Shown here: positions 33,015 through 50,006 of the stretch, one piece after another
Layout: each line of letters begins with the position of its first letter
Numbering within the stretch: the stretch's first letter is position 1
Assembly: GCA_028277845.1 (NCBI GenBank)
Contig: JANQFL010000110.1
Span: forward strand, 1-64,000
Direction of reading: 5' to 3'
Source: Sneathiellales bacterium
GTDB taxonomy: Bacteria; Pseudomonadota; Alphaproteobacteria; JANQFL01
DNA: 64,000 nt
Notes under the pieces: model-generated
Databases searched by the model: none
What the model was told of the DNA's origin: nothing
What the model saw: only the letters and a program-made list of their open reading frames with translations
Program-made: the position numbers and the translations under genes

Positions 33015-35252
33015 TCAAATCAACGCCGCGTCGGTCATGACCTCGACCAACGCCGGGCCGTCGTGGGCCAGCACCTGCTGGATGGCATCGCCCAACGCAT
33101 CCGCTGTCTCCACCCGCACGCCGTAGCCACCGCAGTTGCGGGCGAATTGGGCGAAGTCGGGGTTTTGCAGGGCGGTCTGCCAGACCGGCCAGTTGCCGGC
33201 CCGCTGCTCCTTGGAGATTTTGCCGAGTTCGCCGTTGTTGAGCAGGATATGCGTGAGGTTCATGCCGTACTTCACGGCCGTGGTGAACTCGCCCATGTAC
33301 TGGCCGAAGCCGCCGTCACCGCTGATCGCCAGCACCGGCCGGCCCTGGTGCGGGCCGGGGACCTGGGTTGCCGCCCAGGCGCCGATGGCGGCGGGCAGGC
33401 AGAAACCGATGGAACCGAGATAGCCCGACATCAACACCGACTGCCCCTTGCATTCGAAATAGCGGCCGAACGAATAAGTGTTGTTGCCGACATCAACGGC
33501 GATGACCGCGTCTGCGGGGCAGAGGTCGGACAGCGTCGCGAACACGGCCGCCGAGGAGATGCCCGAACTGCCCGTCTTGATCGCCCGGCGGGCCTTCTCG
33601 TCGCGCCACTGCCGCCAGCGCTCGGCCAGTTCGGCACGGGCATCAACGGCGGGCGTTTCGGCGGGCAGGGCGTTCATCATGCGTGATGCCGTGACGCCGA
33701 TCTCGCCCCACACAGGCACGTCGACGCCGTGGAACTTGCCCAGGGCCATGCGGTCGAAATCGACCTGGATGATCGGCTTCTTGGCTTCGATGCCGGTGTG
33801 GTTGGAAAACGATGCGCCGAACACGATCAACAGGTCGGCGCCGTTCATGGCCCAGCTCGCGACCGGCGTGCCGCTGCGCCCCAGCACCCCGGCGGCCAGA
33901 GGGTGATCGTCCGCAATCTGGCCCTTGGCCTTGAAGGTGGTCAGCACCGGCGCGTTCAACCGCTCGGCCAGTGCCGTGATCGCCGCCATGGAGTCGCGGG
34001 CACCGTAGCCGACGATGATGGCCGGATGTTCCGCCTGGGCGATCCTGTCCATGGCCTCGTTCAGGGCGTCGTCGGGCGGGGCGATGGCGGTGGCGCTCAA
34101 GCGGCCCGCAGGGCCCGAAGCCTCGGCACCGTCCTCCGCGGGGATTACCTGCACTTCGTCGGGGAAGATCAGGTGGGCGACATCGCGCTCGACGACGGCG
34201 TGTTTGAGCGCCAGCGTCATCAGCTCGGCATGTTTGCTGCCCGGCAGGACGGTCTGGCTGAAGCGGCTCACCGCCTCGAACGCCGACGAGAGATCGATTT
34301 CCTGGAACGCACCGGGGCCGAACACCTGGGTGTTGACTTGGCCGGTCAAGGCCAGCACAGGTGCGCGGTCCACTTTGGCGTCCCACAGGCCGGTGAGAAG
34401 ATTGGTGGCGCCGGGCCCGGCAATCGTCAGGCAGGCGGCCGGCGTGCCGGTCAGCTTGGCGTAGCCCGAGCAGGCGAAGGCCGCGGCGCCTTCGTGACGG
34501 ATGCCGATGAAGGTGAGTTCGCCCGCCTCCTCGCGCACCCGGATGGCGTCGGCCAGGCCAAGATTGCTGTGCCCGACCATACCGAACACGTGGCTGACGC
34601 CCCAGTTGACCATGGTCTCGGCCATGACGTCGCTGACGGTGCGGACGCGCTCGCGCCGTTCCTTGATCTGCACGTAGATACCATCGTCGCGCACCTCGAG
34701 CGGATAGGTGTCGGCCTTGTCGTCCATGCCCTCGGGCGCCTTGCCGGTGATCGGGTCGAAGTCCCAGCCGTGCCACGGACAACGCAGCCAGCAATCACCC
34801 TTGTCGTCGCAGTCGATGGTGCCTTCGCCCAGCGGCCCGCCCTGGTGCGGGCAGGCATTGTCCAGTGCGCCGAACGCGTCGCCCAGCCGGGTCAGGGCGA
34901 TGGTCTTGGACCCGGCCTGCACCGCCCGCACTTCGCGGTCGGCCAGGTCGTCTGGCCCGGCCACCTTGACCCAGACGGTTTCCAGACCCTGATCGGCGTC
35001 CAGGTCTTCCTGGGTGATGCGCTTATGGCTGCCGTCGCAATAGGGCGGCTTGCCGGTGCGTTTGCACTGACACAGGAACTGCCGTCCGTCCTCCTCGACC
35101 TTGAACACCACCGGCTTTATGCCGGAGCCCTTGTGCGAGCCGTCGCAGAACGGCTGGGTCCTGGACCGGCCGCAGGCGCACCAGGCGTAGTTCTTGCCGG
35201 CTTTCAGCTCGACGGGCGCGGGTTTGGTGTCGGCGATCTTGGCGTCTGTCAT
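33015..35252 (-). CDS. CDGSH-CDGSH-Rieske-thiamine diphosphate enzyme fusion
   Basis: A 745-residue four-module protein. Two CDGSH [2Fe-2S] motifs are complete: C25/C27/C36/H40 (CACGRSRTQPFCDGSH) and C61/C63/C72/H76 (CQCKRTGKPPYCDGSH). A Rieske [2Fe-2S] domain follows with C134-H136 and C158-H161 (CPHQGG, CPWHGW). Residues ~205-745 are a ThDP enzyme of the acetolactate synthase/pyruvate oxidase class: FIGIRHEGAAAFACSGYAKLTG holds the cofactor-activating Glu, and GDGGFGQYMGEFTTAVKYGMNLTHILLNN the GDG-NN diphosphate motif. Start 35252 has GGAG upstream. It probably decarboxylates a 2-oxo acid and passes electrons through the clusters. Substrate unknown. Confidence 0.85.
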   Translation of the reverse strand: MTDAKIADTKPAPVELKAGKNYAWCACGRSRTQPFCDGSHKGSGIKPVVFKVEEDGRQFLCQCKRTGKPPYCDGSHKRITQEDLDADQGLETVWVKVAGPDDLADREVRAVQAGSKTIALTRLGDAFGALDNACPHQGGPLGEGTIDCDDKGDCWLRCPWHGWDFDPITGKAPEGMDDKADTYPLEVRDDGIYVQIKERRERVRTVSDVMAETMVNWGVSHVFGMVGHSNLGLADAIRVREEAGELTFIGIRHEGAAAFACSGYAKLTGTPAACLTIAGPGATNLLTGLWDAKVDRAPVLALTGQVNTQVFGPGAFQEIDLSSAFEAVSRFSQTVLPGSKHAELMTLALKHAVVERDVAHLIFPDEVQVIPAEDGAEASGPAGRLSATAIAPPDDALNEAMDRIAQAEHPAIIVGYGARDSMAAITALAERLNAPVLTTFKAKGQIADDHPLAAGVLGRSGTPVASWAMNGADLLIVFGASFSNHTGIEAKKPIIQVDFDRMALGKFHGVDVPVWGEIGVTASRMMNALPAETPAVDARAELAERWRQWRDEKARRAIKTGSSGISSAAVFATLSDLCPADAVIAVDVGNNTYSFGRYFECKGQSVLMSGYLGSIGFCLPAAIGAWAATQVPGPHQGRPVLAISGDGGFGQYMGEFTTAVKYGMNLTHILLNNGELGKISKEQRAGNWPVWQTALQNPDFAQFARNCGGYGVRVETADALGDAIQQVLAHDGPALVEVMTDAALI

Positions 35253-35356
35253 GGGCGGCACGGCTCCGGCGGCAGTGAAAGGACTGCAAACAAGATGGTG
35301 CCACGGACAAGCCGTGGCAATCCACCTGCCGGTTTCTCCGCCGCGCCGGCGTGCCG

Positions 35357-37132
35357 CTACGCCGCCCGCACTACCCGGGCGATCAGGCCGAGCATGGTGT
35401 CGTCCCATTCGATCGGGGCGTCGCTGAGACGCCAGCGGCGGTAGAACGCGGCCGCCGCCAGCTTCGCGTCATCGCCGGTTGCCTGGGCCAGGTCGTCGCC
35501 TTCGCGCACGGCGGCCAGGTAGTAGTAGAGATCGCCCATGCGGTCGATAACGTGCTGGATTTTCATGGTCTGCAGCTCGGGCGAGGCGGTGCGCAGTTCG
35601 GCGGCCTTCTCTTTGAGGACGTCAAGTTCCGCTGCGATGAACGCGCGTTCCTCGGACAAATTATCGCCAAGCGTTGCCAGTTCCTCGTTCATGACCTGGA
35701 AGTAGGCCTTGTCGTGGTCGTAGCGGTGGATGTCGCGCAGCACCTGCATCAGCAGGGTGTTGTGGGAGCCTTCCCAATTCTCGAAGATGACGGTTTCGCG
35801 CAGCAGCCGGGGCAGCACCGACGTGGTCTCGATCGCGCCGTTGCCGGCCAGGGTGTCGACCGCCCGGTGCAGGCTGTCGACGGCGCGTTTGGAAATGACG
35901 CTCTTGCCCACATTGGCCATCAGGCGGCCGAAGGACTGCCGGGCCGGGTCGGTGCTTTCGCCGGTGTCGTTGGCGTCCTGCAACGCGATCAGGGCGTAAG
36001 TTCCGGCCAGGCCGACGGTCAACTCGGCCTTGATGCGGGCCAGGTTCTCGCGCACCAGGGGATAGTCGATGATGCGCTTGCCGAAGGCGTGGCGGGTGTC
36101 GGCGTAAACCCGGGCCAGGCGGTAACCCCGCTGGGTGAAGCCCAGAACCGCGGTGGCCAGGGCGATGCGCGAGTGGTGGATGACGTTCTCCATCATCCGG
36201 TTGAAGCCTTTCTCGACCGGGCCGAGGGGGATGGCGTAGGCGTCGTGGAAATCGATTTCGGACGAGGCCAGCGCCCGGGTGCCGAGCTTCTCCTTCAATC
36301 GCCGGAAGGAATAGTCGTTCAATGTGCCGTCGGGCTTGCGCACCGGCACGGCGAACATGGCCAGGCCCTTGGTGCCGGCCTGGGTTTCGTCGTAACGGGC
36401 GCTGAGCACGATCAGTTCGGCGTCGGCATTGGAGCAGAACCACTTCTCGCCGCGGATGTGCCAGTCACCGGCATCGTCCTGCCAGGCCAGGGTGGCGTTG
36501 GCGCCCACATCGGAGCCGCCTTGTACCTCGGTGAGGAATTGGGAGGCGGTGAAGTTATCGTCGTAACTCAGGGTCTCCAGCTTTTCGACCAGGTAATCGC
36601 GCTCGGGCACATTGGGCAGGTCGCGCAGCAGCCGGGCGATTTCAAAATTGCAGATCACCGGGCAATTGTGCCCGGCCTCGCCGGCCTGGCAGGCCAGGAA
36701 ATAGAATCCCATGCCTTCGCGCAGGCCGCCCTTGCGGGCCAGGCGGCCGACCACGCCGGTGCGGTAGATCATGTTGCCGGCATCGGCGTAGCTCGGGTGG
36801 TGCACGATTTTTTCGATGCGCTCGCCGATGCCGTTGTAGCGTTCGACGCGCGGATTGTTGGGATGCCGGTCGTTTTCGCTGGTCGCGTCCGTCAGGGGAC
36901 CGGAGACGTCGTCGCCGAACGCGGCCAAGTCTCCGTGTACGGTGTCGTAGTGCGCGCCCAGGTGATAGCGCAGGGTGTGCTGGAAATCGGGGTCGGTGAG
37001 GTAGGCGTTTTCACGGCAGGCCTCCATCCAGGCCCGCATGTTGGCTCGGCCGAAATCGTGGCCCGGCTGGGATTCTTCGCCCCGCCAGCTTTCCTTGCTC
37101 CCTTGCCGCTGCAGTTCCACAAATTTGTTCAT
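35357..37132 (-). CDS. AidB-like acyl-CoA dehydrogenase
   Basis: A 591-residue FAD enzyme of the acyl-CoA dehydrogenase superfamily. FTASQFLTEVQGGSDVGANAT is the flavin-binding loop (TExxxGSD), WHIRGEKWFCSNADAELIVL and KLGTRALASSEIDFHDA the substrate/FAD segments, and NWEGSHNTLLMQVLRDI the C-terminal dehydrogenase motif. Length and GNxPxI-type middle segment fit the AidB/long-chain branch with an extra helical C-terminal domain. GGGAGGA precedes ATG 37132. The ThDP fusion gene lies 104 bases downstream on the same strand and may be cotranscribed. Confidence 0.85.
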   Translation of the reverse strand: MNKFVELQRQGSKESWRGEESQPGHDFGRANMRAWMEACRENAYLTDPDFQHTLRYHLGAHYDTVHGDLAAFGDDVSGPLTDATSENDRHPNNPRVERYNGIGERIEKIVHHPSYADAGNMIYRTGVVGRLARKGGLREGMGFYFLACQAGEAGHNCPVICNFEIARLLRDLPNVPERDYLVEKLETLSYDDNFTASQFLTEVQGGSDVGANATLAWQDDAGDWHIRGEKWFCSNADAELIVLSARYDETQAGTKGLAMFAVPVRKPDGTLNDYSFRRLKEKLGTRALASSEIDFHDAYAIPLGPVEKGFNRMMENVIHHSRIALATAVLGFTQRGYRLARVYADTRHAFGKRIIDYPLVRENLARIKAELTVGLAGTYALIALQDANDTGESTDPARQSFGRLMANVGKSVISKRAVDSLHRAVDTLAGNGAIETTSVLPRLLRETVIFENWEGSHNTLLMQVLRDIHRYDHDKAYFQVMNEELATLGDNLSEERAFIAAELDVLKEKAAELRTASPELQTMKIQHVIDRMGDLYYYLAAVREGDDLAQATGDDAKLAAAAFYRRWRLSDAPIEWDDTMLGLIARVVRAA

Positions 37133-40109: not shown

Positions 40110-40138
40110 TGATCCATCCGTTTGTCGGCGCCGTACAA
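40110..40138 (+). promoter_or_regulatory. ECF11 (RpoE-ChrR type) promoter for the DUF6134-SDR-SnoaL operon
   Basis: TGATCC (40110-40115), exactly 18 bases, then TACAA (40134-40138). This is the TGATCC-N18-TA pattern known for the group IV sigma factor RpoE of Rhodobacter. It also agrees with the two promoters flanking the sigma gene at 47438-47517. Transcription would start near 40146, after the ATG of the track ORF. Confidence 0.7.
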
Positions 40139-40191
40139 GACGCGTGACTTGTGAGCTTTCATCCGGCGCGCGTCCGAAACGGCAGTTGGTT

Positions 40192-40893
40192 TTGAAAAAA
40201 CCGGTATGGGGCTTGGCCGCGTTGTGTCTGGCGCTGTGTGCCGGCATTGATGCGCGTGCTGCGAACCCGACCGACCCGTTATCCCTCTATGGCCCGCGCA
40301 TCGAGTTCGATGTCTACCGCAACGGATCCAAGGTGGGCTACCACCATGTCCGGCTCTCGCAAATCGGGGCCGAGATATTGGCGGAAAGCGAGTTCACCCT
40401 CCGTATCAAGCTGTTGTTCATTACGGCCTACAGCTTCGACTATCGGTCGCAGGCCGTTTGGCGTGAAGGCCAGTTGCAACGTCTCGACGTCAAGGTCGAT
40501 GACGACGGCAAATTGATCAATCTGACGGTGCGCAGGGACGGCGACGTCATGAAGATCGACGGCCGGAGCGGACGGATCTCGGAAACCGCGCCGCTCTTTC
40601 CCACCAACCACTGGCATGCCGGCGTGCTGAAGCAATCCCGCGTCCTCAATACGCTGACGGGCCGCATCAACAAGGTCTTGATCGCTCCGGCGGGAATGGA
40701 AGCGGTGGAAACCGAGCACGGCCGTGTCGAGGCGACGCGTTATGTCTATTCCGGCGACCTGCAAACCGAGGTCTGGTACGACGGGTCCGGGCGGTGGGTC
40801 AAAATGCGTTTCGAGGGCCGTGACGGGACGGCCATCGATTATGTCTGCCGGTTATGCCAGGGCCCGGCGGGCGGCAAGACGGCGGTGCGGTGA
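40192..40893 (+). CDS. DUF6134-like exported protein of the ECF11 regulon
   Basis: A 233-residue exported protein. The predicted promoter lies inside the longer track ORF (40087), so the start is moved to TTG 40192, which yields a good signal peptide (M-KKPVWGLAALCLALCAGIDARA). The mature part has IEFDVYRNGSKVGYHHVRLS, LRIKLLFITAYSFDYRSQAVW and VDDDGKLINLTVRRDGD, a pattern I associate with DUF6134. Beta-rich sequence suggests a lipid- or ligand-binding periplasmic role. It overlaps the SDR start as TGATG. Confidence 0.65.
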   Translation: MKKPVWGLAALCLALCAGIDARAANPTDPLSLYGPRIEFDVYRNGSKVGYHHVRLSQIGAEILAESEFTLRIKLLFITAYSFDYRSQAVWREGQLQRLDVKVDDDGKLINLTVRRDGDVMKIDGRSGRISETAPLFPTNHWHAGVLKQSRVLNTLTGRINKVLIAPAGMEAVETEHGRVEATRYVYSGDLQTEVWYDGSGRWVKMRFEGRDGTAIDYVCRLCQGPAGGKTAVR

Positions 40894-41654
40894 TGGTACC
40901 GAACGACAACCGTGTCGCCTGGATCACCGGCGCGGGCAAAGGGATAGGCCGCGCCCTGGCCGAACGCCTTGCGCGGGATGGATGGACCGTGGCCGCAAGT
41001 GCGCGGAGCGAGACCGACCTCGTCTGTCTTGCCGCGGTATGTCCGCCCGACAGCGTGCGGCCGGTGCCCTTCGATACGACCGTACCGCACGCCGCGGACA
41101 CGGCCATGGCGCGCATTGTCGAAGACATCGGTATTCCCGATCTGATCATTCTCAACGCCGGCACCCACAGGGCGACGCCGGTTGCCGGTTTCTCGGCGGA
41201 TGCGGCCCGCATGGTTATAGAAACCAACCTCTTGGGCACCATACATTGCCTGGACGCGGTCATGCCGCCGCTGATTAAACGGGGTAACGGACATATTGCC
41301 GTGATTGCGTCTCTGGCCGGCTATCGTGGTTTGCCGTATGCGTCCGCCTACGGCGCCAGCAAGGCCGGCCTGATCAACCTCTGCGAATCGTTGCGGCCCG
41401 AACTGGACCGCCACGGCGTACGGCTGACCCTCGTCAATCCGGGTTTCGTCAAGACGCCCCTGACCGATCTGAACGATTTTCCGATGCCGTTCTTGATTGA
41501 GGTCGAGGAGGCGGTGGACCATATTCTGCGAGGCCTGGAACGGTCCGCATTCGAAGTGGCTTTTCCCGGCCGGTTCGCCTGGTTGATGAAGCTGTTGCGC
41601 ATCGTGCCGTACCGCCTTTTCTTTACCGTGACCCGAAGGATGCTTCGCCCATGA
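40893..41654 (+). CDS. Short-chain dehydrogenase/reductase
   Basis: A 253-residue classical SDR. RVAWITGAGKGIGRALAERLARDGW is the TGxxxGIG cofactor motif, LIILNAGTHRATPV the NAG motif, and PYASAYGASKAGLINLCESL contains the YxxxK catalytic pair. The start is fixed at 40893, overlapping the DUF6134 stop as TGATG. SDRs recur in ECF11 regulons beside cyclopropane-synthase-like genes, so a lipid or aldehyde substrate is plausible but unproven. Confidence 0.85.
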   Translation: MVPNDNRVAWITGAGKGIGRALAERLARDGWTVAASARSETDLVCLAAVCPPDSVRPVPFDTTVPHAADTAMARIVEDIGIPDLIILNAGTHRATPVAGFSADAARMVIETNLLGTIHCLDAVMPPLIKRGNGHIAVIASLAGYRGLPYASAYGASKAGLINLCESLRPELDRHGVRLTLVNPGFVKTPLTDLNDFPMPFLIEVEEAVDHILRGLERSAFEVAFPGRFAWLMKLLRIVPYRLFFTVTRRMLRP

Positions 41655-42070
41655 CCACACCGCAGCAAGGGTACAAGCGGTTCCTCGAAAATTTGTCTTC
41701 CGATACATTGGGCGCGTTGCCGGACTACGTCACCGAAAACGTGCACTTCCAGGACCCGTTCAACGACGTGCACGGCGTCGAGGCCATGACCGAGGTCTTC
41801 CGGCACATGTTTGCCAATGTGGCGCACGTCCGTTTTCGGGTGCATCAGATCGCGGATCAAGGCGACATCTGTTTCATGGCCTGGACGTTCGAAGGCATAT
41901 TGCGCCGCGAGCCCTGGTCGTTCGACGGCACGAGTGTCCTGCGGTTCACGGAAGACGGTCGTGTGTCCGAACATATCGACTATTGGGATGCCGCCCGTCA
42001 CTTCTACGAGCGCCTGCCGGTCATTGGTTGGATGCTTGCCCGGCTGCGGCGGCGGCTGGCCGTTCGTTGA
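41651..42070 (+). CDS. SnoaL/NTF2-like protein of the ECF11 regulon
   Basis: A 139-residue NTF2-fold protein: YKRFLENLSSDTLGALPDYVTENVHFQDPFNDVHGVEAM, FRVHQIADQGDICFMAWTFEG and FTEDGRVSEHIDYWDAARHFYERLPVIGWMLARL. It overlaps the SDR by ATGA. In related clusters this gene accompanies the SDR and FAD oxidoreductase. The 3' end overlaps the convergent DUF3833 gene by 50 bases. Function unknown; ligand binding or isomerase-type chemistry is possible. Confidence 0.8.
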   Translation: MTTPQQGYKRFLENLSSDTLGALPDYVTENVHFQDPFNDVHGVEAMTEVFRHMFANVAHVRFRVHQIADQGDICFMAWTFEGILRREPWSFDGTSVLRFTEDGRVSEHIDYWDAARHFYERLPVIGWMLARLRRRLAVR

Positions 42071-42626
42071 CGGCGTGTTCGGTCAGGCCGACACGGGTTT
42101 CCGGCTTCATGAACGCAAGGGTCACGGTGCCGATTTCGATGCCCAGCTTGCTGACCCGGGCGCGGTTCAACAGCACGCCCGAGGGCTGATAGAACATCCA
42201 GTCGTTGAAATGCACTTTCATGGTGCCGTCGCCGACCTTCAGGTTCATGTCGTAACGCCAGTTCAGGGCGTTGCCGTGGGCCACGCCGTGCGCCACGCCG
42301 ATGACGTCGGCGGCCCGGCCTTCATAGGTGTTGGTTCCGGTCTTGCGGATGATCCAGACCCGCCGGTCGGTTTCGCCGTCGCTGTATCGGAATTGCTCGT
42401 CCAGAATCAGCGCCTGCCCATCCCACGTACCCGTGATGTCGACGGTGAACTGGCGCCGCAGTTTGCCGAACCGGTCTTCGAAAATTCCCCACGCCCGGGT
42501 CCGGCCGTCGAAATACCGCTCGATCAGCAGGCGCGGGGCGGTGTTCTTGAAGTCGATCGGCTTCATGCTCGTGCATCCAATGAGCGTCATCGCAGCGGTT
42601 AGCATCGTTACCAGGCGTGCCGTCAT
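42021..42626 (-). CDS. DUF3833 lipoprotein
   Basis: A 201-residue lipoprotein. MTARLVTMLTAAMTLIGCTS has a lipobox (LIGC), and the mature part with IERYFDGRTRAWGIFEDRFGKLRRQFTVDITGTWDGQ and FRYSDGETDRRVWIIRKTGTNTYEGRAADVIG is the DUF3833 signature. Start 42626 has GGAGGAGG upstream. It ends the operon that begins with the FAD oxidoreductase and probably sits in the envelope, where it may help in handling modified lipids. Confidence 0.85.
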   Translation of the reverse strand: MTARLVTMLTAAMTLIGCTSMKPIDFKNTAPRLLIERYFDGRTRAWGIFEDRFGKLRRQFTVDITGTWDGQALILDEQFRYSDGETDRRVWIIRKTGTNTYEGRAADVIGVAHGVAHGNALNWRYDMNLKVGDGTMKVHFNDWMFYQPSGVLLNRARVSKLGIEIGTVTLAFMKPETRVGLTEHAVNERPAAAAAGQASNQ

Positions 42627-44026
42627 CGGGCAGCCTCCTCCGGGCCAATGGTTGCTTGGCGGGTTTGGTGCAGCCGTCGGCGGATCAACGCATGGCGCCG
42701 AGGGGACAAGGGAAAGCGCCAAATCATCGCCACGGCTGCACCCTTTATTACGGCCGGCACGAGGGCATAGATCACAATCAGAACGTCGCGGCCCGCGTTA
42801 TCCTGCGTGCCCGGGTGAAACCCGAGGATTTCCAGGAGCGGCAGGGCCACGCCGACCGCCAGGGCGAGCGACAGTTTTGTGGCCATGCTCCATAAGGCGA
42901 ACTGCAATCCGGTACGGCGCCGGCCGAACCGCCAGGTGTCGTAGTCGACCACGTCCGCCTGGATGGCGGGCGGCAGGGCCAGGTCCGCGCCCAACGCCAT
43001 GCCGGTGATCACGCAGACGAGCGCAAAGCCCACAAATCCGCCCGCGGGAATCAGGGGGACGGTCGAGAATGCGGCGATGGCCATCACCATGGCCCAGCAC
43101 CACGCCCGGTGTTTGCCCATGACCCGGCTGATCGCCAGCCACGCCGGGATGGCGGCAATCGCCGAAACGAAATAGAGCAGGACGAACATGGACCGTGACT
43201 GTTCGCCTGCCGCCAGACCGTATTCGAGATAGAGAAAGAAAGTGCCGGCGGGAATGCCGTTGGCCATGCCGTTGAGGAACCAGGCGAACAACAGACGCAT
43301 GAACGGGCCGTTGCGGGTTAGGGTCGACCAGTCCTTCCGGATACGTCCGGTCGTTGAACGGCGCAGTCGCGGTCGCGGGATCGTTTTGTCGGGGACAATC
43401 CACAACATGGCCGGAATCACGGCGCACCCCAGGAGGATCGCGGTGACCGCGATCGCGCCGATCGACGCCCTTTCGCCGCCGCCGGTCCAGGTGATGCCGG
43501 CGGCGACCGCACCGGCAACGACAATCCCGAGCAGTGCGCAGCTTTCCCGCACGGCGGTGACGCGGGCCCGCTCGTGATAGTCGGCGCTCAGTTCCGCACC
43601 CCAGGCGGCATAGGGCACCGCGATCATGGTCCACCCCCCGTACAACGCCAGCAGCCAGACCAAAAGATACGTTCCGTCCACCACGGCCGGCGGATTGAGC
43701 ACCTTGTACAGACCGATGCCTGCGACCACACTGCCGACAGCGATCCACGGTTTCCGGTACTGCCCGCGCCAGGGCCAGCGGTCACTCGCGGCGCCGATGA
43801 GCGGGTCGGTCACCGTATCGAAAAGCCGGGCCAGCAACAGAACGGCACCGGTTGCCGACAGACCCAGACCCAGGTTCACGCCGTACATGGTCGGCAGATG
43901 GATGAACACCGGAATCGTCGGCAGGCTGATGACCAGCGCCGGCAAGGCGTAGGCCAGAAGGATCGGAAACGTCAGTCGGTCGCCGGCTCCGGCGTCATCG
44001 CCGCGCGAGGACATACTGGTAGACAT
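42623..44026 (-). CDS. GPH/MelB-type MFS transporter of the ECF11 regulon
   Basis: A 467-residue inner-membrane transporter of the glycoside-pentoside-hexuronide (MelB-like) family. LLLARLFDTVTDPLIGAASDRWPWRGQYRKPWI is the family signature, and MALGADLALPPAIQADVVDYDTWRFGRRRTG the second. Homologues in RpoE-ChrR regulons are annotated as cation symporters, some proposed to move lipids. It overlaps DUF3833 by four bases and the methyltransferase upstream by 32, consistent with coupled translation. ATG 44014 is an alternative start. Confidence 0.85.
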   Translation of the reverse strand: MSTSMSSRGDDAGAGDRLTFPILLAYALPALVISLPTIPVFIHLPTMYGVNLGLGLSATGAVLLLARLFDTVTDPLIGAASDRWPWRGQYRKPWIAVGSVVAGIGLYKVLNPPAVVDGTYLLVWLLALYGGWTMIAVPYAAWGAELSADYHERARVTAVRESCALLGIVVAGAVAAGITWTGGGERASIGAIAVTAILLGCAVIPAMLWIVPDKTIPRPRLRRSTTGRIRKDWSTLTRNGPFMRLLFAWFLNGMANGIPAGTFFLYLEYGLAAGEQSRSMFVLLYFVSAIAAIPAWLAISRVMGKHRAWCWAMVMAIAAFSTVPLIPAGGFVGFALVCVITGMALGADLALPPAIQADVVDYDTWRFGRRRTGLQFALWSMATKLSLALAVGVALPLLEILGFHPGTQDNAGRDVLIVIYALVPAVIKGAAVAMIWRFPLSPRRHALIRRRLHQTRQATIGPEEAAR

Positions 44027-45227
44027 CGGTCTTGCCGCCTTGGAAACCGGCCTCGCAATAACTCAAATAGTACTGCCATAGCCGATGGAACCGCCGGTCG
44101 AATCCGAATTGCTGAATGCGGGGCCAGTTGTCGAGGAACGCATTGCGCCAGCGGCGCAGGCTTTCCGCGTAGGACGGCCCGAATGCAAAGGCATCCTGGA
44201 TGAGAAAGCCACCCGCGTGCGCTGCTTCTCCGAATTTGGCCGGGCTGGGCAGCATGCCGCCGGGAAAGATATATCGTTGAATAAAGTCGGGATTGCGCCG
44301 GTAACCCTCGAAGGAGTCATCTCCGATCGTGATGACCTGCAGGGCGGCGTGCCCTCCCGGCTTCAGGCGGTCGCGCAAAACCGAAAAATAGGCCGGCCAG
44401 TTCTTTTCGCCCACGGCTTCGAACATTTCGATCGATACGATTTTGTCGAAGCTGCCGGAAACGTCGCGGTAGTCCTGCAATTTGATCGTGACCCGGTCTG
44501 CCATTCCCGCCTTGGCCATGCGTGCGCGGGCGAAAGCCGCCTGTTCGGTCGACAGTGTCAGCCCGGTGACGTGGCAGCCGAATTCCGCGGCGGCCATTTC
44601 GGCGAAACCGCCCCAGCCGCAGCCGATTTCCAGTACCCGTTCGCCCGGTTTCAGGTTCAACTGATGGGCCAGGCGCAGATATTTCCGCCGCTGGGCGGAG
44701 GCATGGTTTTCCCCGGGCGACGCGAAAAGCCCGGACGAGTAGGACATCGAACTGTCCAGCCAGTGCCGGTAGAAATCGTTGCCGAGATCGTAATGGGCGG
44801 CGATGTTGCGCCGGCTGCCGCGCCGTGTGTTGGCGCGTCCGGCGTGATGGAGACGTGCCGCCACGGCCGTCCACCAGGGGCGCCGGAGGGCGCCGGATAT
44901 GGCGGCTTCGTTTTCCACGCCAAGGCGCAATACGCTGGTGAGGTCCGGCGTCTCCCAGTCTCCGGCAATGTAGCCCTCCGCCAAACCCATATCGCCGGAT
45001 ACGAGGATCCGGGATATGGCGCGCAGGCGGTTGATGCGCACATCCGCGCGTGGACCGGCGCGGTGGCCTGAATATGTTCGGGGTAAACCCGATGGGAGGG
45101 TCACGGTCAGCTCCCCCGCCTCCAGGCCGCCGAGCCATCTGGAGAGCACGATTTCCGCAATGTGGGAACGTCGACCCGCGCCGCGCGCAAGGGTTTGGTG
45201 GACCGTTTGACTGATCGTGGACTCCAT
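43995..45227 (-). CDS. cfa: Cyclopropane-fatty-acyl-phospholipid synthase-family methyltransferase
   Basis: A 410-residue SAM-dependent fatty-acyl methyltransferase. The N-terminal lipid-binding part includes ISRILVSGDMGLAEGYIAGDWETPDLTSVL; the catalytic part has AAHYDLGNDFYRHWLDSSMSYSSGLF, VLEIGCGWGGFAEMAA (SAM motif) and IVSIEMFEAVGEKNWPAYF. In Rhodobacter the equivalent genes respond to singlet oxygen, and a family member makes methylated/furan fatty acids rather than cyclopropanes, so the product is open. It follows DUF1365 by 12 bases. Confidence 0.85.
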   Translation of the reverse strand: MESTISQTVHQTLARGAGRRSHIAEIVLSRWLGGLEAGELTVTLPSGLPRTYSGHRAGPRADVRINRLRAISRILVSGDMGLAEGYIAGDWETPDLTSVLRLGVENEAAISGALRRPWWTAVAARLHHAGRANTRRGSRRNIAAHYDLGNDFYRHWLDSSMSYSSGLFASPGENHASAQRRKYLRLAHQLNLKPGERVLEIGCGWGGFAEMAAAEFGCHVTGLTLSTEQAAFARARMAKAGMADRVTIKLQDYRDVSGSFDKIVSIEMFEAVGEKNWPAYFSVLRDRLKPGGHAALQVITIGDDSFEGYRRNPDFIQRYIFPGGMLPSPAKFGEAAHAGGFLIQDAFAFGPSYAESLRRWRNAFLDNWPRIQQFGFDRRFHRLWQYYLSYCEAGFQGGKTDVYQYVLARR

Positions 45228-45239
45228 CTGAACGAGCTC

Positions 45240-46031
45240 TCAATATCGGGATGACTGCATTGGGCCGGCGCTACTTTGCACGGGCTGCCGGGCCGCTTCA
45301 TGGCGGAAAACGCGAAGCCCTTTCAGGAACAGCTTCAGTGCATGCCAATGAATGGCCGCGGTGACCTTGAGGGTCATAAAGGGGAACGCGGCCAGTAATC
45401 GCGCGAGTACGGCGTCGTCGAATGGCTGCCTGGTCCCGCGGAAGGACGCCGCCAACAACAGGCCGTCGGTGTCTTCCTGTCTGATGACGATATTGACCGT
45501 CGTATCCGGGGGCAGAATACGAAAGTGATAATCGGCGTCAGGCCCGACAAAGGGCGAGACATACAGGTGTTTCCCGCAACGCTGTTTGATGACGCCCTGC
45601 TGTGCGGCGTCGACCGGAATGACATATGTGTGGCGTTCCTTGAAGGTGTTGCACACTTCGTAAAGGATGGCCATGAGGCCGCCGTCACGGCGATAGCAAA
45701 AGTACGTGCTCAAGGGATTGAACACGTAACCGAATATGCGCGGGTAACACAGCAGCCGAATCGCTCCGCCGTCGACGGGTAGTCCGGCTGAATGAAGGTG
45801 CCGTTCGACCCACGGACGCAGCGGTTCGCCCGTCAGGGGGCCATGGTCACGGTCGTAGAAGGACAGCGGACGAGGTCTGTTGTAGCCGAACATACGGGAC
45901 TGCCGGTCGATCGCGGGCAGTTCGTCCAGATCGAGCAGCAGCGAAAAGACGCGGTAGCGCAAATAGTGTCGTTTTGGCCGGAAGCGTTTGTGAACGACCT
46001 CCCCGCGATATACGGCGCTGTAGTCGCTCAT
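45240..46031 (-). CDS. DUF1365 family protein
   Basis: A 263-residue protein that always travels with Cfa-like and FAD oxidoreductase genes. SAVYRGEVVHKRFRPKRHYLRYRVFSLLLDLDEL, RLLCYPRIFGYVFNPLSTYFCYRRDG and CGKHLYVSPFVGPDADYHFRILPP are DUF1365 signatures. Start 46031 overlaps the FAD gene stop by four bases. It probably works on the same fatty-acid modification pathway; the biochemical step is unknown. Confidence 0.88.
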   Translation of the reverse strand: MSDYSAVYRGEVVHKRFRPKRHYLRYRVFSLLLDLDELPAIDRQSRMFGYNRPRPLSFYDRDHGPLTGEPLRPWVERHLHSAGLPVDGGAIRLLCYPRIFGYVFNPLSTYFCYRRDGGLMAILYEVCNTFKERHTYVIPVDAAQQGVIKQRCGKHLYVSPFVGPDADYHFRILPPDTTVNIVIRQEDTDGLLLAASFRGTRQPFDDAVLARLLAAFPFMTLKVTAAIHWHALKLFLKGLRVFRHEAARQPVQSSAGPMQSSRY

Positions 46032-47419
46032 GCCGTGATCGCCAAATCGGTTTCGGTGATACGGATGCGGCCGTTTTCCCCGGGCACCGTCCACGGACGG
46101 CGTTCGCCACCCAGCCGTTCGGCGACCGCAAGGCCCGATTGCAAGGCGTCTTCATGAAAGCCATGGCCGAAATAGCTGCCGCAGAACCAAGTTCGCCGTC
46201 TTCCCTGCAGCGACCAAAGGTCCTGTTGCGACCGCAACGCTTGCCGGTCGAAATAGGGGTGCGTGTAATTAAACGTTTGAATGACGGTCCCCGGGGCCGG
46301 ATCGTGGACCGGGTTCAACGTCACGAAGACCTGTTCATGGCAGGGAAGCGATTGCAGCCGGTTCATCCAGTAGGTTACGCACAGGGCGGTATCATCGTGC
46401 GGCTTCACGCCTTCGATGAAATTCCAGCTCGACCAGACACGGCGCCGTTTCGGCATCAGAGTCGGGTCCCGGTGCAGCACGGCGCGGTTTTCCGTATAGC
46501 GCCAGCAACCGAGGATGCGGTCTTCCAAAGGATCAGGGTCAGCCAGCAGGCGATAGGCCTGATCGGCATGGGTGGCGACAACCACATGATCGAACTGCTG
46601 CACCGCGCCGAATTCGTCCGCGACGGTGACGCCGTTGGGTCCACGCCTGATCGCGCGTACGCCGCCAAATCGAATGCGATCCCTGTACGGGGCGGTGAGA
46701 CGCGCGACATACGCCTTGCTACCACCATCCACCGTGCGCCATTGCGGGCGCCGCTGCAATTCGAGCAGTCCATGGCTGACAAAAAAACGGATAAACGATT
46801 TCGCGGGATAGGCTTCCATGTCCGCGGGCGTGGTTGACCAGATCGCCGCGCCCATCGGCAGCAGGTGGTCACGAATGAACCGCGTGCCGTAGCCGTGCCG
46901 GCGCAGATACGTGCCGAAGGATAATTCCTCGGCGTTCGCGTCGTCCAGAAGGGCGGGCGCTTCGCGGTAGAAGCGCAGCAGTTCGCGAATCATCCGCCAA
47001 AACCGCGGCCGAACGACGTTCCTGCGCTGACCAAGCAGCCCGTTCGGACCCGTGCCCGAATATTCGAACGCGCCGCCGGCCAGTGACGCGGAGAACGACA
47101 TGTCGCTGGCCTTGGTCGGCACACCCAGATGCGCGAAAAGGGCGGTCAAATTGGGATAATTGCGTTCATTGTAGACGATGAACCCGGTATCGACGGGCAC
47201 CGTGCCGGATCGTGTGGACATTTCGACCGTATTGGAATGCCCGCCGATGCGCGGTTCCCGTTCATAGACCGTGACATGATGGTTGCGCGACAGCATCCAT
47301 GCGGATGCCATGCCCGCGATTCCCGTGCCGATGACGGCGATATTCAATCGCGGTTTGCTTATGGGAACAATTTGGTTCAAGGGTCTGCACTCTTGTTGGC
47401 CGGCGGGGCGCACCGGCAT
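46028..47419 (-). CDS. FAD-dependent oxidoreductase (amine-oxidase/desaturase-like)
   Basis: A 463-residue flavoprotein. RLNIAVIGTGIAGMASAWMLSRNHHVTVYEREPRIGGHSNTVE is the FAD-binding Rossmann motif with GG-doublet. The remainder (VDTGFIVYNERNYPNLTALFAHLGV, WSSWNFIEGVKPHDD, CGSYFGHGFHEDALQSGLAVAE) is typical of the family linked to Cfa/DUF1365 pairs. It opens a five-gene operon and is the first gene behind the minus-strand ECF11 promoter. The predicted leader is short; a TTG at 47380 is an alternative start. Confidence 0.82.
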   Translation of the reverse strand: MPVRPAGQQECRPLNQIVPISKPRLNIAVIGTGIAGMASAWMLSRNHHVTVYEREPRIGGHSNTVEMSTRSGTVPVDTGFIVYNERNYPNLTALFAHLGVPTKASDMSFSASLAGGAFEYSGTGPNGLLGQRRNVVRPRFWRMIRELLRFYREAPALLDDANAEELSFGTYLRRHGYGTRFIRDHLLPMGAAIWSTTPADMEAYPAKSFIRFFVSHGLLELQRRPQWRTVDGGSKAYVARLTAPYRDRIRFGGVRAIRRGPNGVTVADEFGAVQQFDHVVVATHADQAYRLLADPDPLEDRILGCWRYTENRAVLHRDPTLMPKRRRVWSSWNFIEGVKPHDDTALCVTYWMNRLQSLPCHEQVFVTLNPVHDPAPGTVIQTFNYTHPYFDRQALRSQQDLWSLQGRRRTWFCGSYFGHGFHEDALQSGLAVAERLGGERRPWTVPGENGRIRITETDLAITA

Positions 47420-47437
47420 CCGCGTTCAGATGAATAT

Positions 47438-47466
47438 GTCTACGGCCGTTGTCCTTGATTGGATCA
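47438..47466 (-). promoter_or_regulatory. ECF11 promoter for the FAD oxidoreductase operon
   Basis: On the minus strand TGATCC (47466-47461) is followed after exactly 18 bases by TAGAC (47442-47438). Together with the plus-strand promoter at 47489 it makes a divergent pair of the same sigma-factor signature, with the -35 boxes facing each other across 22 bases. Confidence 0.78.
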
Positions 47467-47488
47467 CTCGAAATTACGCCATTCCGGG

Positions 47489-47517
47489 TGATCCACGGGA
47501 AAGCCGGCAACGTAGAC
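47489..47517 (+). promoter_or_regulatory. ECF11 promoter for rpoE-chrR (autoregulation)
   Basis: TGATCC (47489-47494), 18 bases, TAGAC (47513-47517), identical in boxes and spacing to the divergent minus-strand promoter. It lies upstream of the sigma gene, predicting positive autoregulation of the sigma/anti-sigma operon. Confidence 0.8.
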
Positions 47518-47597
47518 GTAATATGGATGCATCATGCACGCTTCGCCGCTCAACCGCGGAATTGGTATCAAATGGCCGTCCGGCTTATGCTGATCGC

Positions 47598-48212
47598 ATG
47601 GGACAACGGCGTCCGCGTCCAGGCGAACTGTCGGCGGTCACCCACGGAAGCAATGCGAGGAAAAGCACTATCGATCAGTTGGATCAGTGGATTGCCGCGG
47701 TGGCCGATGCTCAGGATCGCTCTGCTTTTGCGGCCCTGTTCGAACATTTCGCGCCCCGCATCAACGCTTTTCTTCAGCGCCAAGGGAGCGATCCGGCGCA
47801 GGCGGAAGAGGTTGTGCAGGAAACCATGGTCAATGTTTGGCGCAAGGCAAGCCTGTTCGATCCCGCGCGCGCTTCCGCATCGACATGGGTGTTCACGATC
47901 GCGCGCAATTTACGCATCGACATGATTCGCAAGGCAAGCCGGCCCGAGCCGGACATGATGGATCCGGCCTTCGTGCCCGATGCCGATCCGCCACCCGAGG
48001 AGATCATCGTCCGCAATCAAACAGCCGGCCGGCTGAAGGACGCCGTCGCCAAACTGCCGCAGGCGCAGCAGGATGTTTTGCGCCTGGCCTTCTTCGAGGA
48101 AAAGGCGCACCCGCAAGTGGCCGAGGAACTGGATATCCCGCTCGGCACGGTCAAGTCGCGGATCCGCCTGGCATTCAAGAGTATCCGCTCCGAGTTTGGA
48201 GATCCGTCATGA
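47598..48212 (+). CDS. rpoE: ECF11 sigma factor, RpoE of the RpoE-ChrR pair
   Basis: A 204-residue extracytoplasmic-function sigma factor. Region 2: AFAALFEHFAPRINAFLQRQGSDPAQAEEVVQETMVNVWRKASLFDPARASASTWVFTIARNLRIDMIRK. Region 4: AVAKLPQAQQDVLRLAFFEEKAHPQVAEELDIPLGTVKSRIRLAFKSIR. Pairing with ChrR defines the ECF11 group that answers singlet oxygen and some peroxides in Rhodobacter. The track ORF starts upstream of the promoter; ATG 47598 is used, though its ribosome site is weak. The stop overlaps chrR by ATGA. Confidence 0.88.
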   Translation: MGQRRPRPGELSAVTHGSNARKSTIDQLDQWIAAVADAQDRSAFAALFEHFAPRINAFLQRQGSDPAQAEEVVQETMVNVWRKASLFDPARASASTWVFTIARNLRIDMIRKASRPEPDMMDPAFVPDADPPPEEIIVRNQTAGRLKDAVAKLPQAQQDVLRLAFFEEKAHPQVAEELDIPLGTVKSRIRLAFKSIRSEFGDPS

Positions 48213-48871
48213 GTATTCATCACCACCCGAGCGAAGAACTCCTGCTCGATTATGCCGCCGGTGCCTTGGGCGAGGCATGGAGTCTGGCCGTTGCCACGCA
48301 TCTGGCCTTGTGCCCCGCTTGCCGCCGGACGGTTGGCCGGATGGAAGCCGTCGGTGGCAAGCTGTTGGATGACATCGCGCCGCAGCCGCTGACCGATTCG
48401 GCACGGGACGCCGTGATGGCGCGGCTGGACGAACCGGTCGGGAAGCCGGAATCGATCGCGCCGGCAGCGCCGGCCGGCGGTTCGGTTCCGCATCTGCCGC
48501 GGCCGTTGCGGGATTATGTCGGCGGCGATACGGATGCGGTGGCGTGGCGGCGCCTGGGATTGGGTGCCTATCAGGCACTTATTCTGACCGGCGACGATAA
48601 CGTTACGGCACGGCTGTTGCGTATTCCGGCCGGAAAACCGGTGCCGACCCATACGCACAACGGTCTCGAATTGACGCTCGTACTGTGCGGGGCGTTTTCC
48701 GACGCGACCGGCCATTATGGCCGGGGCGACCTGCAGGAAGCGGACGAAAACCTGGAACACCGGCCGCACGCCACACCCGAGGAGGACTGCATCTGCCTGG
48801 CGGTCACCGACGCGCCGTTGCGGTTTTCCAGCTTCGCCGCCCGGATGGTTCAGCCGTTTATCGGAATATGA
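48209..48871 (+). CDS. chrR: ChrR-type zinc-binding anti-sigma factor with cupin domain
   Basis: A 220-residue anti-sigma factor. The N-terminal zinc ligands fall at H6, H31, C35 and C38 (HHHPSEELL; THLALCPAC), the same positions as in Rhodobacter ChrR. The C-terminal cupin domain has H148-x-H150-x3-E154 (PTHTHNGLELTLVL) for a second zinc. The N-domain holds the sigma factor inactive; the cupin is needed to release it upon singlet oxygen. It starts inside the sigma stop codon, giving fixed stoichiometry. Confidence 0.92.
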   Translation: MSIHHHPSEELLLDYAAGALGEAWSLAVATHLALCPACRRTVGRMEAVGGKLLDDIAPQPLTDSARDAVMARLDEPVGKPESIAPAAPAGGSVPHLPRPLRDYVGGDTDAVAWRRLGLGAYQALILTGDDNVTARLLRIPAGKPVPTHTHNGLELTLVLCGAFSDATGHYGRGDLQEADENLEHRPHATPEEDCICLAVTDAPLRFSSFAARMVQPFIGI

Positions 48872-48893: not shown

Positions 48894-49286
48894 CTAAACC
48901 GCGAAAACCTGGACGCCGACAAGCACCAGCCCCAGGGTGGCGAAGTTCCAGCTGAACGTGCGCAGCCAGGGAATGCCCATGGCGTAGAGCGGCAGATACA
49001 GCACCCGCCCGCCCAGATAGAGGCCGGCGCCCCATGTGCTGAGGTGACCGCTGGTGCCGGTTACATGAACGACCAGGATGCAGGCGGCAAACAACGGGAA
49101 GGTTTCGAGAAAGTTCCACTGGGCCCGATGGAACCGCCCGACCAGACCTTGGCGGGGACGCGCCTCATCCCGTGGGCCGACGGTATAGGCGTTGCCTTCC
49201 TGCGCCTTGTAGAGAAAGGACGACAGGGAAAGATGGATCAACCCCAAAAGTACGGCGCCGAGCAGGGTCCATAACTCGAAGGTCAT
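48894..49286 (-). CDS. MAPEG-family membrane protein
   Basis: A 130-residue membrane protein with four predicted helices. FLYKAQEGNAYTVGPRDEARP, VGRFHRAQWNFLETFPLFAACILVV and GAGLYLGGRVLYLPLYAMGIPWLRTF match MAPEG (microsomal glutathione transferase/leukotriene synthase-like) proteins. Role may be conjugation of lipid peroxides with glutathione, which would suit the nearby oxidative-stress genes. No ECF11 promoter was found before it. Confidence 0.82.
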   Translation of the reverse strand: MTFELWTLLGAVLLGLIHLSLSSFLYKAQEGNAYTVGPRDEARPRQGLVGRFHRAQWNFLETFPLFAACILVVHVTGTSGHLSTWGAGLYLGGRVLYLPLYAMGIPWLRTFSWNFATLGLVLVGVQVFAV

Positions 49287-49361
49287 CGCTGGCGAACGCC
49301 CCGGCCGTTGTTTCAGTTCGTGGCGCGCAGGTTACAGAACGGATTTCGGATTGCAAACCGC

Positions 49362-50006
49362 TCAGTGCTGGGGGATGCCCTTGTAGGCCATGTCGCCCCA
49401 GAGCTGCTTGACCCGCTGATTGCGTCCGCAGTTCCAACGGTAATATTTGTAGCGCAGTGGGCTCTTTTTGTAGAAATCCTGGTGATAGTCCTCGGCGTCG
49501 AAGAACGGCACTGCGTCCTTGATCGGCGTGACGACGGATTTGCCGAGATCCTTCTCCGCCTTCGCTTTCGAGTCCTCGGCCGCTTTGCGTTGTTCCGCGC
49601 CGTCAACGAATATGGCGGTTTCATAGGATTGCCCCCGGTCGCAGAACTGGCCGCCGCCGTCGGTCGGGTCGACAGACCGCCAAAACGCCGTCAGTAAGTG
49701 GTCGTAGGATACCTTCGACGGATCGTAAGTAATGCGCACCGCCTCGTAATGGCCGGTACCGCCCGCCGTAACCTGTTTGTAGGTCGGATTGGGCGAAATG
49801 CCGCCCGTATACCCCGAAACCGTGGCCACGACGCCGGGGATGGCATCGAAGTCGGATTCCACGCACCAGAAACAGCCGCCGGCGAATATGGCGGTGGCCA
49901 GTGTTTCGTCCTGCTGGGCCAGAGCGCCCTTCAACGCGAACGATCCCGCGACGAGCGCGATGGCAACAACAAGACTTGCAGTGACTGTTCGGGCGGTGCG
50001 CTGCAT
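49362..50006 (-). CDS. msrA: Exported peptide methionine sulfoxide reductase MsrA
   Basis: A 214-residue enzyme reducing S-methionine sulfoxide in proteins. The active site FAGGCFWCVESDFDAIPGV has catalytic Cys45 in GCFWC, followed by GYTGG, GHYEAVRITYDPSKVSY and FWRSVDPTDGGGQFCDRGQSY. A signal sequence (ASLVVAIALVAGSFALKGALA) places it in the periplasm. Resolving cysteines may be in RWNCGRNQ. AAGGAGG precedes the ATG. It fits an oxidative-stress neighbourhood but is not preceded by TGATCC-N18-TA. Confidence 0.9.
   Translation of the reverse strand: MQRTARTVTASLVVAIALVAGSFALKGALAQQDETLATAIFAGGCFWCVESDFDAIPGVVATVSGYTGGISPNPTYKQVTAGGTGHYEAVRITYDPSKVSYDHLLTAFWRSVDPTDGGGQFCDRGQSYETAIFVDGAEQRKAAEDSKAKAEKDLGKSVVTPIKDAVPFFDAEDYHQDFYKKSPLRYKYYRWNCGRNQRVKQLWGDMAYKGIPQH

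Follow-up and report, generated by a model that had tools for sequence, protein, structure and literature searches.

Promoter sites, gene linkage and strong genomic co-occurrence with ChrR indicate that proteins of the DUF6134 family belong to the response controlled by the extracytoplasmic function (ECF) sigma factors of group ECF11 across many Alphaproteobacteria, a membership that appears to be new. One such protein is encoded in a 64,000-nucleotide stretch of contig JANQFL010000110.1 from a Sneathiellales bacterium (assembly GCA_028277845.1; hereafter the window). Its gene lies within a cluster at positions 40110 to 48871 that holds two regulatory genes and eight non-regulatory ones, where a first-pass annotation of this DNA had counted nine enzyme, envelope and transport genes. 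Taken as a whole, the cluster is probably an ECF11 stress island in which a furan-lipid operon is accompanied by a DUF6134 lipid-handling arm. Most of this unit is the already known core ECF11 regulon.

Pfam and NCBIfam models identify DUF6134, an adh_short-type short-chain dehydrogenase/reductase (SDR) and SnoaL_2 on the plus strand, followed later by an ECF-type sigma-70 factor and ChrR. On the minus strand they identify DUF3833, MFS_2, CMAS, DUF1365 and a flavin adenine dinucleotide (FAD)-dependent amine oxidase. The junctions within each group are mostly overlaps of a few bases (ATGA or TGATG), and three operons are therefore likely: DUF6134-SDR-SnoaL, ufaD-ufaO-ufaM-transporter-DUF3833 and rpoE-chrR. 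This gene and domain content, with one promoter site heading each operon, agrees with the first-pass annotation, as does the convergence of the two effector operons, whose last genes, SnoaL and DUF3833, overlap by 50 bp (42021–42070).

The three promoters, all of the ECF11 type, are P1 at 40110–40135 (+) ahead of DUF6134, P2 at 47441–47466 (−) ahead of ufaD, and P3 at 47489–47514 (+) ahead of rpoE. They had been described as TGATCC-N18-TA sites at 40110 (+), 47466 (−) and 47489 (+), and this pattern is exact at 40110–40135, 47466–47441 and 47489–47514. Beyond this, each of them agrees at 10 of 10 positions with the full ECF11 consensus from the literature, TGATCC-N16-CGTA. The consensus comes from chromatin immunoprecipitation sequencing in Pseudomonas syringae (PMC5507510), and TGATCC and CGTATT elements have likewise been described in Shewanella oneidensis (PMC4336711). 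It is the rarity of the full consensus that makes the three promoters convincing, since TGATCC-N18-TA alone is weak: genome-wide, the former has 10 matches in 5.39 Mb (2 for a reversed control) and the latter 61 (18 for the control). The still looser TGATCC-N(16–20)-TA, for which 3.6 matches per window are expected by chance, was dropped as a scan on its own because its count in the window was not above chance. With the genome's other seven strict sites taken as the background density, at least three would fall within 7.4 kb with a probability of about 1.5e-7. Sites equivalent to P2 and P3 were found in 17 of 41 ufaD loci and 17 of 22 rpoE loci, counts that take in the window and the Azospirillum loci. 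The strict site is absent ahead of the internal genes GPH, DUF1365, Cfa, SDR and SnoaL (0 of 37–63 loci each), and it precedes DUF3833 in 1 of 35 loci. A site with one mismatch at 42774 (−), within the transporter gene and present also in Azospirillum thermophilum, probably reflects conserved coding sequence.

The linkage of DUF6134 to this regulon extends well beyond the window. Among 100 DUF6134 loci, the highest-scoring ones of a single evenly drawn set, 29 carry an exact TGATCC-N16-CGTA homologous to P1 within 250 bp upstream, and A. thermophilum carries one as well. When spacers of 10 to 23 were tried in these upstream regions, there was one match each at 17 and 21 and none at any other length besides 16, and 498 permuted motifs gave a mean of 0.016 matches. 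A link to ECF11, in the form of the site, chrR, ufa genes or DUF3833, was found in 72 of the 100 loci. By content, 54 loci encode an SDR, 51 ufa genes, 43 SnoaL, 33 DUF3833 and 30 ChrR, with chrR directly upstream of DUF6134 in ten. The window DUF6134 falls in a supported clade in which 20 of 21 rows, from about ten families, are ECF11-linked. The family has members in 152 of the 385 genomes examined from the class, and its odds ratio with ChrR is 13.7, compared with 7.3 for ChrR and DUF3833, a gene of the known core type. In addition, a photolyase-related gene (PF04244, checked against Pfam for three) stands beside DUF6134 on the same strand in 13 loci. Its usual position, between DUF6134 and the SDR gene, links the DUF6134 operon with the Shewanella pair of photolyase and SDR genes (PMC4336711).

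The regulators themselves are closely related to those of Rhodobacter sphaeroides. RpoE (47598–48212, +) matches the R. sphaeroides sigma factor of PDB 2Q1Z chain A (E 2.1e-48) well ahead of other ECF factors. ChrR (48209–48871, +) scores 239 bits against TIGR02451, whose cut-off is 124.5, and matches PDB 2Z2S with an E value of 2.3e-60. Its zinc ligands, as listed in PMC6852236, all align with those of 2Z2S, both H6, H31, C35 and C38 and the H-x-H, E and H of the cupin domain. With the autoregulatory TGATCC-N16-CGTA at 47489–47514 ahead of rpoE, every feature that can be read from the sequence marks the two proteins as an ECF11 pair. At that same level the sites, the operons, the conservation and the linkage are likewise in place.

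The leftward operon very probably serves the synthesis of furan fatty acids, given the published roles of UfaD, UfaO and UfaM and the gene order in Rhodopseudomonas palustris (PMC7380195). In R. sphaeroides, Lemke et al. found that RSP1091 (UfaD), RSP1090 (the DUF1365 protein UfaO) and UfaM make furan fatty acids, as do RPA2571-2570-2569 (ufaD-ufaO-ufaM) of R. palustris (PMC7380195). All three families are encoded together in the window, in the order ufaD-ufaO-ufaM. The FAD amine-oxidase-family protein (46028–47419, −; Pfam Amino_oxidase, 1e-27), whose nearest solved relative is LkcE, is the probable UfaD desaturase, and the CMAS-family methyltransferase (43995–45227, −; Pfam CMAS, 1.1e-83) is the probable UfaM. 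The DUF1365 protein (45240–46031, −; Pfam, 1.6e-79) is the probable UfaO, acting at the furan-forming step. Its family had been listed as having no known activity, which is incorrect, as RSP1090 is needed for furan formation in R. sphaeroides (PMC7380195). The proposal that the cluster is an ECF11 unit for fatty-acid modification under singlet-oxygen or organic-peroxide stress is thus very probably right, in view of the set and order of the ufa genes and of the synteny and promoters that recur in other Alphaproteobacteria.

The remaining proteins of the two effector operons suggest functions in the cell envelope. The DUF6134 protein (PF19630; 40192–40893, +; Pfam E 3.4e-50) has a signal peptide, a probable TTG start and an AlphaFold2 model with a predicted local distance difference test (pLDDT) score of 89.6. 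The nearest fold in the PDB is that of Brucella EipB (6NTR; E 5.3e-7, template modelling (TM) score 0.59, 10% identity), a modest match to a periplasmic beta-spiral. EipB serves envelope integrity in the periplasm, and its architecture is similar to that of LolA and LolB (PMC10787603). It differs from the window protein in its Pfam family (DUF1849) and genomic context, at about 10% identity. No DUF1849 match was found in the DUF6134 protein, PF19630 being the sole Pfam match even at E 10, and a PDB search by sequence gave no meaningful match. On the modeled fold, DUF6134 is a predicted periplasmic beta-spiral that probably binds a hydrophobic, perhaps lipid, ligand. None of the papers searched names the family, and an earlier listing by locus tag (Dufour 2008) may exist. 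In Paracoccus sp. AK26, a DUF6134 gene (locus L231, 8884–9510) stands beside AMP-binding, SDR and TauD-like genes and has no exact site.

The DUF3833 protein (42021–42626, −; Pfam, 4.6e-63) is a lipoprotein with the lipobox LIGC and a predicted lipocalin-like barrel. Calycin- and lipocalin-like barrels are among the best fold matches of its model (pLDDT 91.0; TM about 0.5), and a PDB sequence search gave no meaningful match. It is probably the counterpart of RSP1088, a lipoprotein without which R. sphaeroides still makes furan fatty acids (PMC7380195). Where the first-pass annotation had offered DUF6134 and DUF3833 as candidates for undescribed steps, both look like ligand-binding barrels of the periplasm or outer membrane rather than enzymes. 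Its label "GPH transporter" also proved misleading. The MFS_2 protein (42623–44026, −; Pfam MFS_2) scores 152.9 bits against the GPH:cation symporter model TIGR00792, below the curated cut-off of 231.35. In a profile search it is closer to the lysophosphatidylcholine symporter MFSD2A (4.3e-48) than to MelB (3.9e-31), while Escherichia coli UidB, used as a control, shows the opposite order. MFSD2A is its best solved relative, although MFSD2A is eukaryotic and the window protein bacterial. These comparisons suggest a lipid-type rather than a "GPH sugar" carrier, and a role in sugar transport was dropped. Asp70, Asp74 and Lys384 show no variation among relatives of the window protein, which we take, by analogy with MelB and MFSD2A, to fit a cation-coupled carrier. 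The two other genes of the rightward operon encode the SDR (40893–41654, +; Pfam adh_short, 1.6e-44), RSP1087/SO_4170-like by family and context, whose start overlaps the DUF6134 stop, and a SnoaL/NTF2-fold protein (41651–42070, +; Pfam SnoaL_2, 4.5e-20), which has an ATGA overlap with the SDR gene.

Several known systems share parts of this arrangement. The core ECF11 regulon of R. sphaeroides, of about eight genes (PMC6852236), comprises rpoE, chrR, the SDR gene RSP1087, the lipoprotein gene RSP1088, RSP1090, RSP1091, phrB and cfaS (PMC5507510). The RpoE-ChrR pair, the consensus and the families of the FAD protein, DUF1365, the lipoprotein and the SDR are common to the window and to the R. 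sphaeroides regulon with its RSP1091-1087 operon. Unlike in R. sphaeroides, the SDR gene of the window lies in a separate operon, after DUF6134 and ahead of SnoaL, the methyltransferase gene is in the main operon, and no photolyase gene bearing a site was found. The RPA2571-2568 operon of R. palustris, which makes 9M5 furan fatty acid (9M5-FuFA), has the same ufaD-ufaO-ufaM order (PMC7380195), whereas the window operon runs on into the MFS_2 transporter and DUF3833. In S. oneidensis, TGATCC..CGTA precedes the photolyase-SDR pair SO_4169-SO_4170 and the phrB-cfa operon SO_3386-3374 (PMC4336711), for which, unlike for the window, no DUF6134 has been reported. A further counterpart is the island on plasmid unnamed3 of A. 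thermophilum (NZ_CP029358), in which gene content, gene order and the convergent arrangement are unchanged and all three promoters are exact; it differs in having a thiamine-pyrophosphate (TPP) enzyme gene between the ufaD and sigma factor genes. The island is also found again in many other families.

By homology with these systems, we infer both the furan chemistry and the control by singlet oxygen or peroxides. Singlet oxygen or organic hydroperoxides would inactivate ChrR and free RpoE for the TGATCC-N16-CGTA promoters of the three operons. UfaM, UfaD and UfaO would then turn the acyl chains of phospholipids into furan fatty acids by methylation, desaturation and oxygenation, and the same operon would add DUF3833, as a lipocalin-like, outer-membrane-type lipoprotein, and an MFS_2 transporter of the lipid type. 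DUF6134-SDR-SnoaL would form a second arm, in which DUF6134, as an EipB/LolA-like periplasmic spiral, probably binds a lipid ligand, and the SDR and SnoaL proteins, as cytoplasmic enzymes, probably act on carbonyl products of lipid oxidation. The lipid roles of DUF6134, DUF3833, the transporter, the SDR and SnoaL are guesses from folds and genomic context. More speculative still, and rather unlikely as it stands, is a scheme in which furan or oxidized (lyso)phospholipids are moved between the two membranes, or sensed, by an envelope relay of DUF6134, DUF3833 and the MFSD2A-like transporter, while the SDR and SnoaL proteins clear the carbonyl products of these lipids.

Other explanations bear on different parts of this account. 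Elsewhere in the genome the strict site occurs seven more times, mostly within genes (CheA-like, AMMECR1-like and others), which indicates that matches alone can be inert, so the site ahead of DUF6134 might be a chance or non-functional match and the gene lie outside the regulon. This is most improbable, given that the exact site recurs at the same place in other DUF6134 loci far above the permuted motifs and that all three sites head the same operons in A. thermophilum. It also seems unlikely that the operon yields cyclopropane or methylated rather than furan fatty acids, with the CMAS protein as a true cyclopropane synthase. While the protein matches Pfam CMAS and its best NCBIfam model is Cfa, it scores 289 bits against that curated equivalog, with a cut-off of 400, and its gene adjoins those of the UfaD and UfaO families in the ufaD-ufaO-ufaM order. 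A second, higher-scoring CMAS gene of the same genome (contig C51:88358-89146), which perhaps encodes the true cyclopropane synthase, also speaks against this reading, and cyclopropane synthesis was dropped as the main product. Doubtful, though less so, is that the unit answers mainly to other signals, such as organic peroxides, metals or ultraviolet light. ECF11 systems do respond to tert-butyl hydroperoxide and other signals as well (PMC6852236, PMC5507510), but the window ChrR keeps the zinc ligands of the cupin domain, the domain on which release under singlet oxygen depends in R. sphaeroides (PMC6852236).

The strongest competitor accepts DUF6134-SDR-SnoaL as part of the regulon, yet regards it as a general operon for carbonyl or redox detoxification or for repair, tied to the other operons by nothing more than the promoter, as photolyases are. 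The photolyase-related gene beside DUF6134 and the Shewanella photolyase-SDR pair under the same promoter (PMC4336711) are consistent with this, as is the dispensability of the SDR RSP1087 for furan fatty acids (PMC7380195). On the other hand, DUF6134 is predicted to be exported, with a lipid-carrier-like fold, and its operon usually adjoins the ufa operon, and we consider a detoxification or repair operon a serious but less probable alternative. Further points weigh against a stress island with a DUF6134 lipid-handling arm. Deletions of RSP1087-1089 left furan fatty acids unaltered in R. sphaeroides (PMC7380195), so that the SDR, the lipoprotein and the transporter must act elsewhere, if on these lipids at all. 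The fold matches of both DUF6134 and DUF3833 are modest, and the orthology of the Ufa proteins, which is probable, rests on family and gene order. The genome counts for ChrR and DUF6134 (103 with both, 49 and 31 with one alone, 202 with neither; p 2.6e-28) ignore shared ancestry. Finally, nothing linked to ECF11 lies within about 7 kb in 28 of the 100 DUF6134 loci, which indicates that some members of the family occur in other contexts.

To call the regulon in the cluster complete, as had been done, overstates the case, as the sole photolyase gene found has no site and a further strict site lies ahead of a nonribosomal peptide synthetase (NRPS) gene. The assembly is 98.5% complete in 124 contigs. 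A single PF03441 photolyase gene was found in it, at a contig end and with no strict site upstream, and no PF04244 photolyase was found in the genome. The exact TGATCC-N16-CGTA on another contig (C119:102323-102348) stands 66 bp ahead of an 835-aa NRPS-like gene, with condensation, carrier and thioesterase domains by eye; genes for an acyl-CoA dehydrogenase and an AMP-ligase come next. The NRPS-like gene is a possible extra ECF11 target, and its site may be due to chance; the other strict sites outside the cluster were judged to be inert. Within the window, a MAPEG-family gene and a gene for the methionine sulfoxide reductase MsrA (48894–50006) converge on chrR without a strict promoter and fit oxidative stress. 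An encoded protein of 797 aa (33015–35408) fuses CDGSH iron-sulphur, Rieske and thiamine-pyrophosphate enzyme domains, and TPP enzymes also flank the A. thermophilum island. The 3′ ends of SnoaL and DUF3833 lie about −18 to +133 bp apart in most syntenic relatives, and antisense coupling between the two convergent operons is possible.

In conclusion, the presence of DUF6134 in the ECF11 regulon across many families would make it a concrete candidate for an envelope lipid-handling step. If the transporter is taken to be of the lipid type, and both DUF proteins to be ligand-binding barrels, the choice of assays changes. If the relay exists, the ECF11 response would include a dedicated arm for the trafficking and signalling of oxidized lipids. 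The genes for furan fatty acid synthesis are required for ChrR turnover (PMC6852236, PMC7380195), and these proteins may bear on the part that lipids play in singlet-oxygen sensing by ECF11 systems.

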